A stretch of DNA of 64,000 nt from Vulcanimicrobiota bacterium. GTDB taxonomy: Bacteria > Vulcanimicrobiota > Vulcanimicrobiia > Vulcanimicrobiales > Vulcanimicrobiaceae. The translations under genes and the position numbers were made by a program. How positions within the stretch are numbered: position 1 is the stretch's first letter; each line of letters opens with the position of its first letter. Location of the stretch: positions 1-64,000 of the forward strand of contig JAAXCX010000008.1 of NCBI GenBank assembly GCA_013036105.1, written 5' to 3'. Below the pieces are notes generated by a model, which made no database searches, had not been told where the DNA came from, and worked only from the letters and a program-made list of their open reading frames with translations. Below, in pieces: positions 7,448 to 15,368 of this stretch.

Positions 7448-7615
7448 GATCGATACTTCCTCTGTACCTGACTTGGGCTGTGAGTGGCTGGGGGGTCCGG
7501 TCTCTTAGACATCCGCTCAAGAGCCCCCCTTGTGCTATTCACGCCCTCTCCAACCAATGACGAGGGGGGCCCGGTTGCCGGGGGGGCACGATACTCCTTC
7601 GCGAAGCCCTCAGCC

Positions 7616-8161
7616 GTGAGCAAACGCCTGCCGCTCTGGTTCGCCGCAGTGGTCCCCTCGATGGCGGCCGGTCACGTCGCGGGCTACGCGCTGTCGGGGG
7701 TTAGCGCGGCCGACGGCCGTCACGGCTGGCTCTCGCCCGCCCTCGAAATCGGCGCTGCGGCGCTGATCGGCTTAGGCGCTCTCATTGTCGCAAGCACATT
7801 GCTGCGCGCCGGCATTTTCCGTCGATCGAAGATCGAAAGCTCGGTCATTGCGCTTGCGCCTCGGTTGGCCGCGTCGCAGCTCGCACTGTTCGTTGCAGCC
7901 GAGACCTTCGAAGGGCGCAGCATCACACCGGCCGGCGTCGCCACGCAGCTGGTTTCGGCGGTACTCGCAGCGTATACGCTTTCGCTCTTCAGTAAACTCA
8001 TCGAACGCTGCATCGCAAGCGCCGGCGAAGCGGGCAGTTATCTCGAACGTCTCGCCGCGGCAGCCGCCGCGTTCGCGCTCATCGATCCTGCGCCGCGCGC
8101 CGTTGCGCTTTTCGCAAGTGCCGGCAACAACCGTTTTCAACGCCCTCCTCCGTTTGCGTAG
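7616..8161 (+). CDS. Small integral membrane protein upstream of the heme-porin gene
   Basis: 181 aa from GTG 7616 (MSKRLPLWFAAVVPS), with four to five hydrophobic stretches: about residues 5-25 (AAVVPSMAAGHVAGYAL), 40-62 (EIGAAALIGLGALIVAST), 75-95 and 105-125, and one near the C-terminus. An upstream in-frame start would add 44 non-membrane residues out of G-tract-rich DNA, so I prefer 7616. No known motif; a buried His in GHVAGY could bind metal. It precedes the cytochrome-porin gene by 41 bp on the same strand, and its partner in the cluster is the similarly small membrane protein at 11387. Function unknown. Confidence 0.6.
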   Translation: MSKRLPLWFAAVVPSMAAGHVAGYALSGVSAADGRHGWLSPALEIGAAALIGLGALIVASTLLRAGIFRRSKIESSVIALAPRLAASQLALFVAAETFEGRSITPAGVATQLVSAVLAAYTLSLFSKLIERCIASAGEAGSYLERLAAAAAAFALIDPAPRAVALFASAGNNRFQRPPPFA

Positions 8162-8202: not shown

Positions 8203-9969
8203 GTGTCGCAACGCATTCTCGTTGCCGCAGTTCGCGCGATGTGCGCGACTGTGGCGATCACGGCAGCCGTCGCCGGACGGGCTGAAGCTATTCCCGTCTT
8301 TGCCAACGGGCAAGGCGTCTCGTGTCAAACCTGCCACACGACATTTCCGGGCATGACGCGCTACGGCATGATGGTCATGATGAGCAATTTCCAAATTCTG
8401 GACAGGCATGCTCAAGATCAAGCGTTGCCCATCGCTGTCCGCATGTACGTTGATTCGGTGCTCGGCACGACAGACCAAAAGGGATACGTTCAGATGAGCG
8501 ATCTCTCACTGTTGGCCGGCGGTTTTCTCGGAAAAGACTTTACTTGGTATGCCGAGCAGCACGTCATCGACTCGGGCGTCATCGGTCAAACCGAACAGGT
8601 CTGGCTTTCGTGGAACGGATTGTTCGGCGGCACCAACTCGTTGCAAGTGGGAAAATTCCATACGCCGTTTCCGTTCATGCCCGCGCATGCGTGGACACCG
8701 TCCGGTTATTTGCTTGCGGAACAAACGACGGGACAGAACGATTTCAACGCGGCCGAAGCACGGTGGGGCGTCGCGTTCTCCGGCATGAGCAACGAGTTCA
8801 TGTACAACGCATCGTACCTCACCGGAAGCGGTCCGACGAGCGAAGCCCTCGACTTCAATAAGAGCTCACATCCCCGCGCCTTCGATTTCAACGTCTCGTA
8901 TGGCGGCATGTCGATTCCGTGGGAGCTCGGTTTGGTGGCGATTCGCGGCGACGCGCCGGTGCTCGACCCGGATTCCGGCGATTTTCTGTTCAGCGATCAG
9001 TGGTCACGCCAGGGCGCCTATCTCTCGTATCAAGACAGCCGCTGGCATTTTCAAACGATGTATTATCGTGGAAACGACACGCAGCCCGACGTCGATACCG
9101 CGAACACGACGTCCAACGGATTCTTCTTTGAAGCGGGCCGCGACTTCGCAAAAGACCACCTCCTGGTCCGGTACGATGTCGCCTCGAGCGATTCGCTCGA
9201 CCGGCAATACCTCGTGGACATATCGCACAACTTTCAGCCGAATCTCGCGCTGATCGGTGAAGTCCGCATGGTGCCGGCGCAAAAGCCGCAGATGCTCTTT
9301 AGGCTTGCGTACGCCGGACCGTGGGATAACGGCCACCGCATTCTTTCCAACGGACACGACGTTCCGATCGGATCGATGTTCCAACCGTCATCGGCCATAC
9401 CCGTCGCGTCCGCGCCGCCTACCGCGGCGCCGCCGGCGCCTGCGCCGGCCGGTAATGCCAACAACGGTGCGCAGCTCGTGCAATCCAACGGTTGTGCGGG
9501 CTGTCACGGCGCGGGACTGAAGGGCGGGCGGATCGGACCGGCGCTTTTCGGCATCGAACATCACATGTCCAATGACCAGATTGCGGACTTCATCGTGCAT
9601 CCGAGGGCCCCGATGCCGAACTTCGGTTTCAATCCGTCGCAGGTTGCCGATATCGTGGCGTATCTCACATCGCTCGACGGCGGCATCAATAGCGCAGCCC
9701 CGACCGTCACGATATCGCCGCAAACGCCGGTTGATTCTGCAACGATCAGCATCACGTTTCCTGGAACGCCGCCAACAAGCGTCACCGTTCTTCCGGTGAT
9801 GCACATGGGAGCGGGCACGCATCACACTGCGATGGTCCAATTGCAGCCGTCGCCGGCTGATCCGCACACGTTTACGGGACGCATCACATTTTCGATGGGC
9901 GGTCCGTGGATCGTGCAGGTTCAATACGACGGACACGAGATGGACATACCGCTGAACGTCGGGACATAA
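8203..9969 (+). CDS. Outer-membrane cytochrome-porin fusion with second heme c and YtkA-like domain
   Basis: 588 aa from a GTG with GGAGGT upstream. Domain order: signal peptide (1-29); c-type heme site CQTCH at 41-45 in the context FANGQGVSCQTCHTTFPGM, the arrangement seen in Cyc2-like fused cytochrome-porins; a long beta-barrel-like region (about 60-390) of alternating aromatic strands; a Pro/Ala linker (about 397-420); a second class-I cytochrome c domain with CAGCH at 431-435 and a candidate Met ligand in PRAPMPNFGF; and a C-terminal YtkA/FixH-like beta domain (about 505-588) with PVMHMGAGTHH and SMGGPWIVQVQY. It could pass electrons across the outer membrane to or from a periplasmic acceptor. 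The stop overlaps the multicopper oxidase start (TAATG). Domain calls are from motifs only. Confidence 0.8.
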   Translation: MSQRILVAAVRAMCATVAITAAVAGRAEAIPVFANGQGVSCQTCHTTFPGMTRYGMMVMMSNFQILDRHAQDQALPIAVRMYVDSVLGTTDQKGYVQMSDLSLLAGGFLGKDFTWYAEQHVIDSGVIGQTEQVWLSWNGLFGGTNSLQVGKFHTPFPFMPAHAWTPSGYLLAEQTTGQNDFNAAEARWGVAFSGMSNEFMYNASYLTGSGPTSEALDFNKSSHPRAFDFNVSYGGMSIPWELGLVAIRGDAPVLDPDSGDFLFSDQWSRQGAYLSYQDSRWHFQTMYYRGNDTQPDVDTANTTSNGFFFEAGRDFAKDHLLVRYDVASSDSLDRQYLVDISHNFQPNLALIGEVRMVPAQKPQMLFRLAYAGPWDNGHRILSNGHDVPIGSMFQPSSAIPVASAPPTAAPPAPAPAGNANNGAQLVQSNGCAGCHGAGLKGGRIGPALFGIEHHMSNDQIADFIVHPRAPMPNFGFNPSQVADIVAYLTSLDGGINSAAPTVTISPQTPVDSATISITFPGTPPTSVTVLPVMHMGAGTHHTAMVQLQPSPADPHTFTGRITFSMGGPWIVQVQYDGHEMDIPLNVGT

Positions 9970-11390
9970 TGCAGCGCTCGACATTTTTGCGGGCGGGCGG
10001 CGGCGCGATGATCGTCGCCGCTCTTCCGCCGCTTACGGAGCGCGCACTGGGCGCCGAGTTGGTCCAGTACACGCTGACGGCCGCTCCGGTGCCGTTCTCG
10101 CCGGTACCCGGTCTCAATTTCGCCGGACTCGGCTATAACGGCAGCATTCCGGGGCCTCTTCTGCGCGTGGTTTACGGACAGCGGCTGCGCGCGAAATTCG
10201 TCAATAACACCGGGCAAGGCTCGACCATTCATTGGCACGGAATGATCTTGCCGAACAAGATGGACGGAGCGGAGGGCGTGACGCAGCCGGCCGTTCCGCC
10301 GGGCGGATCGTTTGTGTACGAGTTCTCGCCCGAACCGCCCGGCACGCGCTGGTACCACGATCACGTCAGCGACGGAATGCTGCGCGGGCTTTTCGGCATG
10401 ATCGTCGTTGAAGATCCGAGAGACCAAAAAGCGGATGCGGAGTTCGCGCTCGTCTTCCACGATGTCCCGAAGCCGGGCTCCGCGCGCGCCGCCATGATGG
10501 GCGTCAGTACCGCCCCGATGGTGGACCCACCGGCTTCACCCGAACTCCGGGAGATGGCGCCCGACGACAAGATGGGCGATGAGATCGCGTTTATCGCGCA
10601 TTGCATCAACGGCGCTTCCTACCCGAATACAAAGCGGCTGCCGGTCAAAGTCGGCCAGCACGTGCGGCTGCGCATCCTTAACGCCAATCCGACGCAGACG
10701 CGTTACGTGCGTCTGGCCGGCCATCGTTTAATCGTCACACACAGCGACGGCAACCCGCTCCCAAAGCCGCTGGAAGTCGACGCGCTTCGCGTCGGCGTAG
10801 CGGAACGTTACGATGCATGGTTCGAAGTCAGCGAACCCGGCTCGTGGCTGCTGCAAGGCCTTTCGAGCGATCCGCTCGGATACGAACAAGCCGCCGTCGT
10901 GCATACGCCGGGCATGGAAAATGCTTCGCCGCTCAGCAGCCCGCAGTCGCTCGAAGGTGTAGATTATTTCACGTACGCGAAAGCGGGCGGCGCGGGCAGC
11001 GCCGTGCCGGCGAAAGGCGCGAAGCATTACGACTTCACCTTGGGCGGAGGGCAATACGGGAGCTCCCGGTGGACGATCAACGGCAAGACCTACCCGAATA
11101 CACCCCGCATTGACGTGCGCCGCAACGATCTCGTCACTGTCCGCTTTACCAACAAGACCGACATGGATCATCCGATGCATTTGCACGGCCACGTTTTTGA
11201 GGTGACCGAAGTCGACGGCGTCGCGCTCGCCCGGCCACTGCCGAAAGATACGTCGCTGGTGCGCGCGAACGAAGGGACGCTCAGCTGGCGCTTCCGCGCC
11301 GACTCGCCCCCGGGCCGCTGGCTGCTGCACTGCCACAACGCAATTCATATGATGGACGGCATGATGACCGACGTCGTCTATACCACATGA
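9969..11390 (+). CDS. Multicopper oxidase (laccase/CueO-like)
   Basis: 473 aa, start ATG sharing a base with the previous stop. All four copper-binding segments are present: HWHG (88-91), WYHDH (128-132), HPMHLHGH (401-408) and HCHNAIHMMDGM (454-465). The type-1 copper Cys is 455, and Met 465 is the likely axial ligand. Such enzymes oxidise phenols or metal ions (Cu(I), Fe(II), Mn(II)) and reduce O2 to water in the periplasm. The N-terminus QRSTFLRAGGGAMIVAALPP is a signal peptide with a partly Tat-like character but only one Arg. No Met-rich loop as in CueO is seen. Coupling to the heme-porin gene suggests they share a substrate or an electron path. Confidence 0.93.
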   Translation: MQRSTFLRAGGGAMIVAALPPLTERALGAELVQYTLTAAPVPFSPVPGLNFAGLGYNGSIPGPLLRVVYGQRLRAKFVNNTGQGSTIHWHGMILPNKMDGAEGVTQPAVPPGGSFVYEFSPEPPGTRWYHDHVSDGMLRGLFGMIVVEDPRDQKADAEFALVFHDVPKPGSARAAMMGVSTAPMVDPPASPELREMAPDDKMGDEIAFIAHCINGASYPNTKRLPVKVGQHVRLRILNANPTQTRYVRLAGHRLIVTHSDGNPLPKPLEVDALRVGVAERYDAWFEVSEPGSWLLQGLSSDPLGYEQAAVVHTPGMENASPLSSPQSLEGVDYFTYAKAGGAGSAVPAKGAKHYDFTLGGGQYGSSRWTINGKTYPNTPRIDVRRNDLVTVRFTNKTDMDHPMHLHGHVFEVTEVDGVALARPLPKDTSLVRANEGTLSWRFRADSPPGRWLLHCHNAIHMMDGMMTDVVYTT

Positions 11391-11875
11391 TGATGCGCAC
11401 GTTCTCCGTTTCGGTACTGCTCGGTCTGCCGGCTGCAATACTGGCTCACGCAGGCATTTTCCACGGCACGCACGCCGCCGGCGGCGCCGCACATGGCATA
11501 CTCGTGACGCTTTCGATCATTTGCGCAGCCCTCGCGGCGGCCGCCGCGCTATCGCCGAGATTCTTCCGATTACCAGCGCCGCCGGTCGCCGGCACTGTCG
11601 CAAGCGCGGCGGCATGGTTCGCATTCATCGAACTGCGTGAGAGCCCGCATTCCGTCGCGCTTTTGCCTTGTCTGGCCGCCATCTGTTTGGCCGCATGGAT
11701 CGTTTTATCAGCGTGGCACGGATTCGCGCGTGTCGCGGCCGGCGCCGTTCGGCAATTTTTCGCAAGATTACGCCCGCCGGTGCAGCGGTACGCGACCCTC
11801 TGCCGCGCTGCGGTGCATGCTTTCGGTTCGCTAAGCCCAACCTACCGGCTTTTCTCTCGACCACCACCGGTTTAA
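11387..11875 (+). CDS. Small integral membrane protein coupled to the multicopper oxidase
   Basis: 162 aa, ATGA overlap with the multicopper oxidase stop; three consecutive ATG codons make the exact start ambiguous. Hydrophobic segments near residues 5-20, 33-55, 65-82 and 90-110. A His-rich early segment AHAGIFHGTHAAGGAAHG sits between the first two segments and could bind copper or heme. The C-terminal 45 residues are basic and amphipathic. No family recognised. Its position inside the oxidase/TonB-receptor cluster suggests an accessory role in metal handling or anchoring of the periplasmic components. Confidence 0.6.
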   Translation: MMMRTFSVSVLLGLPAAILAHAGIFHGTHAAGGAAHGILVTLSIICAALAAAAALSPRFFRLPAPPVAGTVASAAAWFAFIELRESPHSVALLPCLAAICLAAWIVLSAWHGFARVAAGAVRQFFARLRPPVQRYATLCRAAVHAFGSLSPTYRLFSRPPPV

Positions 11876-11930: not shown

Positions 11931-14246
11931 ATGCGACAACTCGTCCCGGCGCTTTGCGCCGTCCTCGTATTTTTTGCAGCGCTCCCGGCGGCGGCGGCCG
12001 TTACGGGCGTCGTGCGCGGCAGCGTGATCGTCGACAACGCGCCGCGCGCCGGCGTTAGCCTGGCACTTAGCGGCGAAGGCTCTCTGCTGCGCTCCACAAG
12101 CGACGCCGCGGGTAACTATGTTTTTTCTCAAGTGCCGTTTGGCGACTACACGCTCACGGCAACGTATCCGGGAGTTCCGGAACGCATCTTAAGCGTTTCG
12201 ATCGCTTCCGACTCGGTGCTCACGATCAATATAGCGCTCGGCCAGCTCAAAGTCATCGGCAATCTCAACGTGATCTCGCGCGCCGGCGCATCGGGAACGC
12301 CCGTCTCCGGCAACATTCTCAGCCGTCAACAGCTGGCCGCACTACCGTCGAACAATAGTTTAGACCGCGTCGTGCAAACGGTGCCCGGCATCGTTCGCTT
12401 TTCGTATAACGAACCGGTCGCTCACGGCTTCCACGGATTGACCTACGAAATCGATGGCGCGCCGATTCCGCAAGCGACCAGCTCGAATTTCTCAGAGATC
12501 ATCGATCCCAAGAACATCGACTCGCTTGAGATTTTTACGGGCGCGTTTCCGGCGGAGTACGGCGGCAGCCGGCAAGGTGCCGTCGTCAACATCGTCACCA
12601 ACCGGCTCAGCAGCCTACAGGTTCCCGCGCAGGGCGCCTTGACGCTAGGCGGCGGGAACTATGGTCAGGCCGTCGCGAGCTTCGACGAAGCGCTGAAACT
12701 GGGTTCTTCGCAGTTATTCTTGACTGCGAACACTCAGCACACCAATCGCGGCATCGACGCGCCGACGTTCAACGCGGTCCACGACAACTCGTCGCAGTCC
12801 GACGAATTCTTACGCTTCATTACCCCCGCGGGCTCGCGCGGAACCCTCTCATTTGATTTTTCAAACCAACTCGCGCAATTCCAGATTCCTATAAACACCG
12901 ATCCGAACAATCCAAACGACTCGGTCGTAAACGTACCCGGCACGGACGACGTGCAGCGCGAGTACGACCGCTACGCAAATCTGAATCTGACGCTCTCTTC
13001 CAAAGACGGGGACGCCGTCTTCCAGATCATCCCGTGGTACCGTTACACCCGGATCGCCTATGACGGCGACCTCGCCAACGACGTGCAGGCGACGCAGCCC
13101 GATCCGGACACGGGCGATCCCGTGAACCTCGTAGGCTTACGCCAAGACCGTCAAGCCAGCTATGCCGGCTTGCGCGTTTCACAATTCCGGGCATCCGACC
13201 ATCACGCGGTAAAAATCGGCGCCGACTTTTCGCGCGAGATCTTCAACTCGCGTCAAGTCTTCGGCATGCTCGATGAAGGCGGAGCGCTTGCCACGGTGGC
13301 AAGCAATGTCTCGCAACCAGGCTGGCAAGTCGGCGTGTACGCACAAGACAAGTGGACGCCTTCGCACGCCCTCTCGGTCGATTACGGTCTGCGCTGGGAT
13401 CACTCCACCGGGTTTACGAGCGGCTATCAGATCAGTCCGCGCATCGGCGTGAACGTTGCGCCCGACGCAAAGAACGTCGTCCACTTCTACTACGGACGCA
13501 TGTACGCGGCACCGCAATTGGAAGACGTCCGGCAGGCATGCGTTGCGCTACAAGGTTGCCCGAACGTTCCCGTTTACGATCTGAAACCCGAAAGTGACTC
13601 GTACTTCGAAATGGGCGTCGCGCATACGTTCGACCCAAGCATGACCGGATACGTCAACTTCTTCATGCGCAGCGCCGTGAACGTGCTCGACACAACGCAA
13701 CTGCTCAATACGCCGCTCTTCGCGGTGTTCAACAACGCCATCGGGCGCGACGAAGGCGTGGAATTGCGGCTTCAGGGACGCCGCGGCATCGCTGACAGCT
13801 GGTTCCTCTCGGCAACGGCTTCGCGGGCGGAAGCAGCAGGCGTTTCCGGGTCTACTTTCCTGTTTCCGCCGGATGTCAATCCTCCGGGACCGATAACGGC
13901 GGCGGACTTCCAGCCGGAAGATCACGATCAAACGTACGAAGCGAACGGGGCATACACACACCGGTTCGGCAAAAACGCAGGGTGGTTTGCGACGGTGCAA
14001 GGCGAATACGGCACCGGCTACCCGGTTCAGTTCGAGAACGGCGAGGGACGGCTCCCGGCGCATCTGACCGCCAATCTTTCATTCGGAAAGGATGCCGGAA
14101 AGAACGGCGATCGTACGCTCGGCTTCGATCTCAACGTCGAGAATCTGTTGAATCATCAGTACGTCATCAAAATCGCCAACGGATTCAACACGACGCAAAT
14201 TTCGACCGGACGCACAATCTTGCTGCGGCTGACTGCGCCGCTCTAA
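11931..14246 (+). CDS. TonB-dependent outer-membrane receptor with N-terminal carboxypeptidase-regulatory-like domain
   Basis: 771 aa. Signal peptide MRQLVPALCAVLVFFAALPAAA; residues about 25-110 form an Ig-like carboxypeptidase regulatory domain (GVVRGSVIVDNAPRAGVSL...GNYVFSQVPFGDYTLTA). A plug domain follows (LDRVVQTVPGI ... GGSRQGAVVNIVTN, about 140-225), then a 22-strand barrel ending in an aromatic-rich strand RTILLRLTAPL. No clear TonB box was spotted. It imports an unknown ligand using the proton-motive force. Its place between the multicopper oxidase genes and the permease suggests a metal complex, but the substrate cannot be read from the sequence. No Fur-like site was seen upstream, unlike the receptor at 28728. 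Confidence 0.92.
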   Translation: MRQLVPALCAVLVFFAALPAAAAVTGVVRGSVIVDNAPRAGVSLALSGEGSLLRSTSDAAGNYVFSQVPFGDYTLTATYPGVPERILSVSIASDSVLTINIALGQLKVIGNLNVISRAGASGTPVSGNILSRQQLAALPSNNSLDRVVQTVPGIVRFSYNEPVAHGFHGLTYEIDGAPIPQATSSNFSEIIDPKNIDSLEIFTGAFPAEYGGSRQGAVVNIVTNRLSSLQVPAQGALTLGGGNYGQAVASFDEALKLGSSQLFLTANTQHTNRGIDAPTFNAVHDNSSQSDEFLRFITPAGSRGTLSFDFSNQLAQFQIPINTDPNNPNDSVVNVPGTDDVQREYDRYANLNLTLSSKDGDAVFQIIPWYRYTRIAYDGDLANDVQATQPDPDTGDPVNLVGLRQDRQASYAGLRVSQFRASDHHAVKIGADFSREIFNSRQVFGMLDEGGALATVASNVSQPGWQVGVYAQDKWTPSHALSVDYGLRWDHSTGFTSGYQISPRIGVNVAPDAKNVVHFYYGRMYAAPQLEDVRQACVALQGCPNVPVYDLKPESDSYFEMGVAHTFDPSMTGYVNFFMRSAVNVLDTTQLLNTPLFAVFNNAIGRDEGVELRLQGRRGIADSWFLSATASRAEAAGVSGSTFLFPPDVNPPGPITAADFQPEDHDQTYEANGAYTHRFGKNAGWFATVQGEYGTGYPVQFENGEGRLPAHLTANLSFGKDAGKNGDRTLGFDLNVENLLNHQYVIKIANGFNTTQISTGRTILLRLTAPL

Positions 14247-14255
14247 GGAGGCACC

Positions 14256-15368
14256 ATGCACGCGATCGGCCAGGCACTCTTGCTTGCCGCAGGAATGTTC
14301 TGGCAGGTCGCGTGGAGTCTGGTCCTGGGCTTTTTTCTTTCCGCGGCGATTCAGACGCTGGTCTCAAAAGAGCGCATGACGGAGCAGCTCGGCCGCAACG
14401 GTGTGCGTGAGATCGCGCTCGCAACTCTTTACGGCGCGGCGAGCTCTTCGTGTTCGTACGCCGCGGCGGCAATGAGCAAGACGCTCTTCAAGAAAGGCGC
14501 CGGCTTCATTCCGTCGCTGGCGTTTCTCTTCGCCTCAACCAATCTCGTCGTCGAGCTCGGCGTCATTTTATATCTGCTGATGGGCTGGCAATTCACGGCG
14601 GCGGAGTGGCTGGGCGGCGTGCTGCTGATTGCCATCATGGCGCTGATCGTCAAAGCAACCTATCCGGCAACGCTGATCGCGCAAGCGCGGCGCCACCTCG
14701 ACGACGCGACGGGTGACGACGAAACCGTCGCCGGCCAGACATTTTGGGATAAGCTGCGCAATCCGCAAACACCGGTAACGATCGCACAAACGTTTGTGAT
14801 GGACGTCTCCATGCTGTGGAAGGATCTGGCTGCCGGATTCTTGATCGCGGGCGCGCTTGGCATCTTCATTCCGGCGGGCGCCTGGGGCGCGTTCTTTTTG
14901 CACGGCGCGCCGGCGGGTGTGCAGATTGTCGCCAATGCGATCGCCGGTCCGCTTGTGGCAATCGTGTCATTTGTTTGTTCGATCGGCAACGTGCCGATGG
15001 CGGCGATCCTATGGGGCAGCGGCATCAGCTTCGGCGGCGTCCTGAGTTTCTTGTTTGCCGATCTGATCGTGCTGCCGCTGCTCGACGTGTACCGGCGTTA
15101 TTACGGCCTAAAAATGGCCGCTTACATCGGCGCCGTCTTCTTCGTCACCATGGTTGCAGCGGGCATCATCATGCAATGTGTCTTTGACGCGTTCGGGGCA
15201 ATTCCGCACCCCAACCCGCATATTCGCACCGATCTCTCGCTGTTCGCAATCAACTATACATTCTGGCTGAACCTTGCGCTCGGCGCCTTGGCGGTCTCAC
15301 TCTGGTACGTAAACGTCAGACATCCGATGGCGCACAGCTGTCCGGCGCACGAGGGCCACGCCCACTAG
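14256..15368 (+). CDS. DUF318/UPF0718-type permease
   Basis: 370 aa with about eight to ten membrane helices. The conserved first-repeat motif GAASSSCSYAAAAMSKTLFKKGAG, with a Ser/Cys cluster at the membrane, and the second-repeat sequence VSFVCSIGNVPMAAILWGSGISFGG are typical of the permease family that includes ArsP-like organoarsenical exporters and YraQ-like proteins. The cysteines in each half could bind a soft metal. It follows the TonB receptor by 9 bp with a good ribosome site (TAAGGAGG), so the two belong to one operon. The C-terminal tail is His-rich (HPMAHSCPAHEGHAH), consistent with metal binding. Substrate unknown. Confidence 0.85.
   Translation: MHAIGQALLLAAGMFWQVAWSLVLGFFLSAAIQTLVSKERMTEQLGRNGVREIALATLYGAASSSCSYAAAAMSKTLFKKGAGFIPSLAFLFASTNLVVELGVILYLLMGWQFTAAEWLGGVLLIAIMALIVKATYPATLIAQARRHLDDATGDDETVAGQTFWDKLRNPQTPVTIAQTFVMDVSMLWKDLAAGFLIAGALGIFIPAGAWGAFFLHGAPAGVQIVANAIAGPLVAIVSFVCSIGNVPMAAILWGSGISFGGVLSFLFADLIVLPLLDVYRRYYGLKMAAYIGAVFFVTMVAAGIIMQCVFDAFGAIPHPNPHIRTDLSLFAINYTFWLNLALGALAVSLWYVNVRHPMAHSCPAHEGHAH

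Follow-up and report, generated by a model that had tools for sequence, protein, structure and literature searches.

Genes at the locus

The window (the whole stretch of 64,000 nucleotides that was analysed) comes from a soil bacterium of the Eremiobacterota (Vulcanimicrobiota). It contains a gene encoding a heme-porin fused to a cytochrome c and a tentatively YtkA-like domain, followed directly by a gene encoding a multicopper oxidase (MCO). The genes and features considered here were:

7489–7580, + strand: conserved 5′ leader at the operon head, genus-specific (one copy per genome in 7/7 genus members)
7616–8161, + strand: TM202, ~181 aa, hydrophobic and probably a membrane protein; His/Glu residues are conserved and the C terminus carries R[FY]xRPPP
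8203–9969, + strand: heme-porin/cytochrome c/YtkA-like fusion protein, 588 aa, a single open frame with a GTG start
8323–8337, + strand: N-terminal heme motif CQTCH (C41, C44 and H45 invariant in 19/19)
8368–8382, + strand: MMxMM motif (M56, M57, M59, M60), a class-specific feature of the MCO-linked porins
8431–9318, + strand: predicted 16-stranded outer-membrane beta-barrel (residues 77–372; AlphaFold2, Foldseek, VIA-align)
8653–8688, + strand: KFHTPFPFMPAH motif, conserved in the class, within the long loop that follows strand 5, which is the position of the porin L3 constriction loop
9454–9675, + strand: second cytochrome c domain, CBB3 type (Pfam, 19/19 members), with its CxxCH at 9493–9507 and the candidate axial Met471 at 9613–9615
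9700–9966, + strand: C-terminal beta-sandwich, tentatively YtkA-like (sub-threshold Pfam match), with M533, M535 and M565 invariant
9969–11390, + strand: MCO, 473 aa, three cupredoxin domains (Pfam Cu-oxidase, E 2.5e-39, 8e-19 and 3e-36) and a Tat-type signal
11387–11875, + strand: TM162, a small member of the TM202 family, probably a membrane protein, conservation not universal
11931–14246, + strand: TonB-dependent receptor, accessory, in some relatives only (Pfam, synteny)
14256–15368, + strand: ArsP_1 permease, accessory, variable among relatives (Pfam; NCBIfam CuZnOut_SO0444 below cut-off)

Domain architecture of the fusion protein and the MCO

The fusion protein runs from a signal peptide, Sec-like by inspection, through a CxxCH motif, a porin barrel and a Cytochrome_CBB3 domain to a C-terminal beta-sandwich, with the two CxxCH motifs at residues 41–45 and 431–435. 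Pfam and NCBIfam models matched nothing in the first 400 residues, and searches of the barrel region against both collections gave no PcoB/CopB-type match. The AlphaFold2 model of the full-length fusion was poor (pLDDT 43) and was left out for detail; a model of the porin domain alone was better and predicted 16 strands with moderate confidence (pTM 0.57, pLDDT 52). Foldseek related this porin model to 16-stranded porins (OmpU, E 3.5e-10; OprO, 1.9e-7), and VIA-align returned Z scores of 18.7 for OmpU, 18.5 for OprO and 17.9 for OprP, the best PDB matches all being 16-stranded. Since pLDDT fell below 50 both in the heme region and in the long pore loop bearing the conserved motif, we infer the placement of heme 1, and any metal site in the model would be unreliable.

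The second cytochrome domain was identified by a match to Cytochrome_CBB3 (PF13442) at residues 418–488 (E 1.6e-11; 44.8 bits, above the threshold of 27), with C431, C434, H435 and M471 invariant in 19 fusions. The C-terminal domain reached a pLDDT of ~80–88 in the full-length model and gave a weak, uninformative match in fold comparison. An initial annotation of this DNA had named it YtkA/FixH-like; a weak YtkA match (PF13115) was indeed found at residues 526–573 (E 0.0024), scoring 18.9 bits, below the gathering threshold of 25.9, and recurring at E 0.01 in 5/19 fusion homologs. Its identity as a YtkA domain is tentative. In all 19 aligned full-length fusions both CxxCH motifs, M471, M56, M57, M59, M60, H153, M159 and H162 were invariant.

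The ATG of the MCO gene at 9969 uses the last base of the fusion stop codon (TAATG, one base shared). All four copper-ligand motifs, HWHG, WYHxH, HPxHLHGH and HCHxxxH, were invariant among 20 homologs. The best NCBIfam model, copper_res_A (TIGR01480), scored 181.1 bits, below its cut-off of 478.95, and the nearest solved sequences in the PDB were generic bacterial laccases and MCOs. Three-domain MCOs generically accept many substrates. The twin-arginine signal (9972–9992) reads QRSTFLRAG in the window and RRSxFL in most relatives, with QR in place of RR.

The initial annotation had thus correctly read one protein with an N-terminal CxxCH, a barrel-like region and a second cytochrome c domain (a frame at 8203–9969, the Pfam CBB3 match and the 16-strand model), and a complete MCO sharing a base with the fusion stop (TAATG at 9969, three Cu-oxidase domains and invariant copper motifs). 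The checks it had proposed also came out in its favour: structure prediction for the barrel and domain order gave a 16-stranded porin fold with Z ~18, and the heme Cys and His residues were invariant in 19/19.

Conserved linkage of porin, cytochrome and MCO

Full-length fusion orthologs were found in more than 20 Eremiobacterota genomes, and a survey of the class at E 1e-40 gave a match in 49/117 genomes, a count that includes cytochrome-only forms and other heme-porins. Fusion homologs were 50–88% identical, and the named relatives carrying them were likewise Eremiobacterota, palsa isolates among them. An exact-peptide scan was extended to genome contigs beyond the phylum, where the named records matched were Eremiobacterota; profile searches stayed within the phylum. 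A plasmid search recovered no homolog of the fusion or of two other heme-porins, and with the MCO as query it recovered generic relatives alone (~35%). The host genome itself contains Cytochrom_C_asm (cytochrome c maturation) genes, one COX1, and MCO-domain genes in addition to the MCO of the window.

Among 40 related loci, an MCO was the next same-strand gene in 37, usually separated from the fusion or cytochrome gene by –4 to +12 bases (three start calls being ambiguous). By form, this adjacency was seen in 22/24 fused, 3/3 split and 9/10 cytochrome-only loci, and in 3/3 loci of a class-level variant, f3. Of the two fused loci without an adjacent MCO, one (G088) ends at a contig end and the other (G012) has a helicase gene next; no MCO adjoined in the DNA examined from G012 and G121. 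Family f2 has the fusion split in two: the frame closes after the porin, and the cytochrome-YtkA-like part follows as a gene of its own with its own signal, the order relative to the MCO being kept. Such split genes, like the cytochrome-YtkA-like genes that keep an MCO where no porin gene was found, are Rosetta-stone evidence suggesting a functional link between porin, cytochrome-YtkA-like protein and MCO. The f3 variant comprises a porin with two cytochrome domains and no YtkA-like domain, together with a divergent MCO. No porin gene was found at ten cytochrome-YtkA-like loci, one of which starts at a contig edge. What the loci share is a cytochrome together with an MCO; in most of them a heme-porin is attached as well. 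The invariance of the heme Cys and His residues (n=19 full-length fusions) and the recurring overlap or near-overlap with the MCO gene across the class lie far beyond chance. In one genome (G089, locus L091), TM202 and the fusion are immediately preceded by a second cytochrome-YtkA-like gene.

Class-specific residues and other heme-porins of the phylum

The string HTPFPFMPAH occurred in 30/30 porins of the MCO-linked class, whereas H153, M159 and H162 were present in 0/21 other heme-porins of the phylum. Met or His accounted for 9/22 class-specific porin residues vs 25/359 across the porin region (p ~2e-6, a value inflated by sequence relatedness, and for a class delimited by a string that itself contains H153 and M159). 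This enrichment hints at a soft metal, for example Cu(I), as the substrate, and is the main hint for it. In a tree of 51 heme-porins, the MCO-linked group of families f1 and f2 formed a clade (100/100), and its union with f3 was weak (72/15).

The phylum also has Cyc2-like heme-porins with the pattern AMPPFAQxYG...CHTxVPALNAYGRY, some of which adjoin cupredoxin, COX2, COX1 and two-component genes. In sister species, rus-like clusters (L064:1736–8629 and L067:701–7917) contain COX2, COX1, regulators and two pairs of a cupredoxin with a Cyc2-like heme-porin; they are a parallel in which a heme-porin is combined with a terminal oxidase. In the host genome, genes for a histidine kinase, a response regulator and Sco adjoin a shorter Cyc2-like heme-porin (L063:3347–4474, contig C2). 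A further group of porins in the phylum, mostly diheme, has an ANGQG heme motif; those at L062, L068, L069, L071 and L072 are diheme with a C-terminal cytochrome c domain, and no MCO was found adjoining them.

Comparison with known systems

Cyc2, an iron oxidase (Keffer et al., 2021), has a 16-strand barrel resembling OprO/OprP, a length of >365 aa, and a strict motif, AXPXFAR[Q/K][T/Y] upstream of CxxCH and PXL downstream (PMC8406198). The fusion shares with it a signal peptide, a single N-terminal CxxCH behind that peptide, a 16-stranded OprO/OprP-like porin in a moderate model, a length >365 aa, and, in the same register, the opening AXPXFA of the motif. The strict motif is absent: the fusion reads AIPVFANGQ and PGM, with NGQ, conserved in the f1/f2 class, in place of R[Q/K][T/Y], and PGM in place of PXL. 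The Cyc2-like context proposed initially thus holds for the architecture and not for the strict motif. The fusion further differs from Cyc2 in its MMxMM and HTPFPFMPAH motifs, in its additional C-terminal cytochrome c and YtkA-like domains, and in the MCO directly downstream. Porin-cytochrome systems of the MtrAB/PioAB type combine a multiheme cytochrome with a ~26-stranded barrel, in contrast to the one N-terminal heme motif and 16 modelled strands seen here.

In the PcoA/PcoB (CopA/CopB) pair, a periplasmic MCO gene likewise adjoins an outer-membrane barrel gene, and an electron conduit has been hypothesised (He et al., 2017; PMC5566968). The present barrel differs in being 16-stranded in the model and heme-bearing, with a cytochrome fused in and an MCO below the copper_res_A cut-off. 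MofA-MofB-MofC and OmpB resemble the locus in combining an MCO gene with a cytochrome c gene and in having a proposed role in metal redox chemistry; no heme-porin fusion is described there, and MofA/OmpB homologs are predicted to be extracellular (PMC5566968). The rus operon of Acidithiobacillus (cyc2-cyc1-cup-cox) also links a heme-porin to a cytochrome and a terminal oxidase, the latter being an aa3 heme-copper oxidase (PMC10654088) in contrast to the periplasmic MCO of the window. In agreement with the initial annotation, which knew of no system combining these parts, a literature search, with many subscription papers lying outside it, turned up no account in which a fused heme-porin and cytochrome is paired with an MCO.

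Proposed function

The reading that we consider best, with a probability of about one half, is a two-gene outer-membrane electron conduit leading from a metal through the hemes and the MCO to O2 and serving metal oxidation or detoxification. A conduit of this kind paired with an MCO had been suggested initially and is partly supported, in that the modelled barrel, the domain order and the conserved hemes agree with it. The barrel would lie in the outer membrane and, following the proposal for Cyc2, would hold the N-terminal heme domain inside its pore or next to it. Heme 1 would take an electron from a reduced metal ion, for which the abundance of Met and His among the conserved class-specific residues makes Cu(I) a likelier candidate than Fe(II). 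The cytochrome c domain, tethered on the periplasmic side, would relay the electron to the type-1 copper of the MCO; this enzyme, exported through Tat, would reduce O2 to water in the periplasm, and the YtkA-like tail may dock it or load it with copper. Reduction of O2 by a periplasmic MCO pumps no protons, which makes respiration a less likely role than detoxification or metal oxidation, except if electrons from the cytochrome enter a respiratory chain as well. Against a porin-to-MCO conduit we count the cytochrome-only loci, because they indicate that the MCO-cytochrome pair can exist without the porin, the lack of an adjacent MCO in the DNA examined from G012 and G121, and the broad substrate range of generic three-domain MCOs. 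A narrower version would make the pair a copper-specific counterpart of Cyc2: Cu(I) would be oxidised within the pore of the heme-porin, and the dedicated periplasmic MCO would pass the electrons to O2. We advance it tentatively, as less likely than not; if true, the whole route from metal to oxygen would lie outside the inner membrane.

The Cyc2 architecture and the 16-strand barrel are also what would be expected of an Fe(II) conduit in which the heme-porin delivers electrons through the cytochrome domain to the respiratory chain, the MCO then serving as a safety valve or side branch. In its favour, palsa isolates are among the named hosts, a Cyc2-like gene has been reported from an acid-mine-drainage Eremiobacterota MAG (PMC8357290), and the host genome has one COX1. 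We nevertheless regard this as rather unlikely given the departure from the strict Cyc2 motif, the more Cyc2-like heme-porins that lie beside COX genes elsewhere in the phylum, and the Met and His residues of the MCO-linked class at positions where those porins have others. Comparably doubtful is a PcoA/PcoB-type copper-tolerance unit, in which Cu(I) oxidation is the work of the MCO itself, copper crosses or is exported through the porin, and the cytochrome-YtkA-like part has no role beyond supplying copper or electrons to mature the MCO. Among NCBIfam models the MCO matches copper_res_A best, yet its score of 181 falls far short of the cut-off of 479; PcoAB, an MCO and an outer-membrane barrel, is essential to copper resistance (PMC5566968), yet the present barrel lacks a PcoB/CopB match, is fused to heme and resembles 16-stranded porins. 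YtkA-family CtaK and YcnJ have been implicated in copper delivery to an oxidase in Bacillus (PMC13344008), yet the YtkA match here is sub-threshold. That the cytochrome-YtkA-like gene keeps its MCO even without a porin fits a maturation role; pure transport, however, leaves the invariant heme of the porin unexplained, and no CsoR-family regulator was found in the genus. Very improbable, finally, is the oxidation of phenolics or humics by the MCO as a laccase, with the heme-porin exchanging electrons with redox-active peat or soil organic matter: the MCO is close in sequence to generic bacterial laccases in the PDB, but the conserved module has no recurring catabolic genes and the invariant Met and His residues point to a metal.

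Heme-porins serve as markers of microbial iron oxidation. The conserved class, linked to an MCO in place of a heme-copper oxidase, suggests that the heme-porin architecture serves more than one metal and cautions that not all Cyc2-like genes should be labelled iron oxidases. On the conduit reading preferred here, the locus would be a concrete case of a porin-MCO conduit, previously a hypothesis alone (PMC5566968), from a phylum of which very few members have been cultivated.

Flanking genes and operon leader

Upstream of the fusion, TM202 was present in many f1 and f2 genomes and was the sole other frequent partner of the module. It had no significant Pfam match and was homologous to TM162 (hhalign probability 95, E 4e-8); the two represent a single unnamed family, hydrophobic and probably membrane-bound, in which His/Glu residues and an RPPP motif at the C terminus are conserved. 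The initial annotation had taken the neighbouring TonB receptor, permease, Sco and His-rich genes as pointing to the handling of copper or another metal, a view not upheld by the neighbourhood survey, which placed them outside the conserved module. The Sco, His-rich and rfaD genes were rejected as parts of the module; they stay with a chromosomal block. In several relatives the metK-sahH block and the rfaD/His-rich/Sco genes flank the slot; in many others the module lies at a different place that lacks these genes. The porin-MCO pair also occurs in many relatives with none of the rfaD, His-rich, Sco, TonB receptor and permease genes.

The strongly conserved leader had no Rfam match, showed no covariation and gave no convincing match outside the genus. 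Its G-tract was considered as a CsoR-type operator and rejected, no CsoR-family protein being found in the 7 genus members. Runs of G and of C within it could form mutually exclusive hairpins. The leader tracks the head of the operon, lying upstream of TM202, but upstream of a TM162-like gene in G003; a further copy lies at L044:4953–5044.
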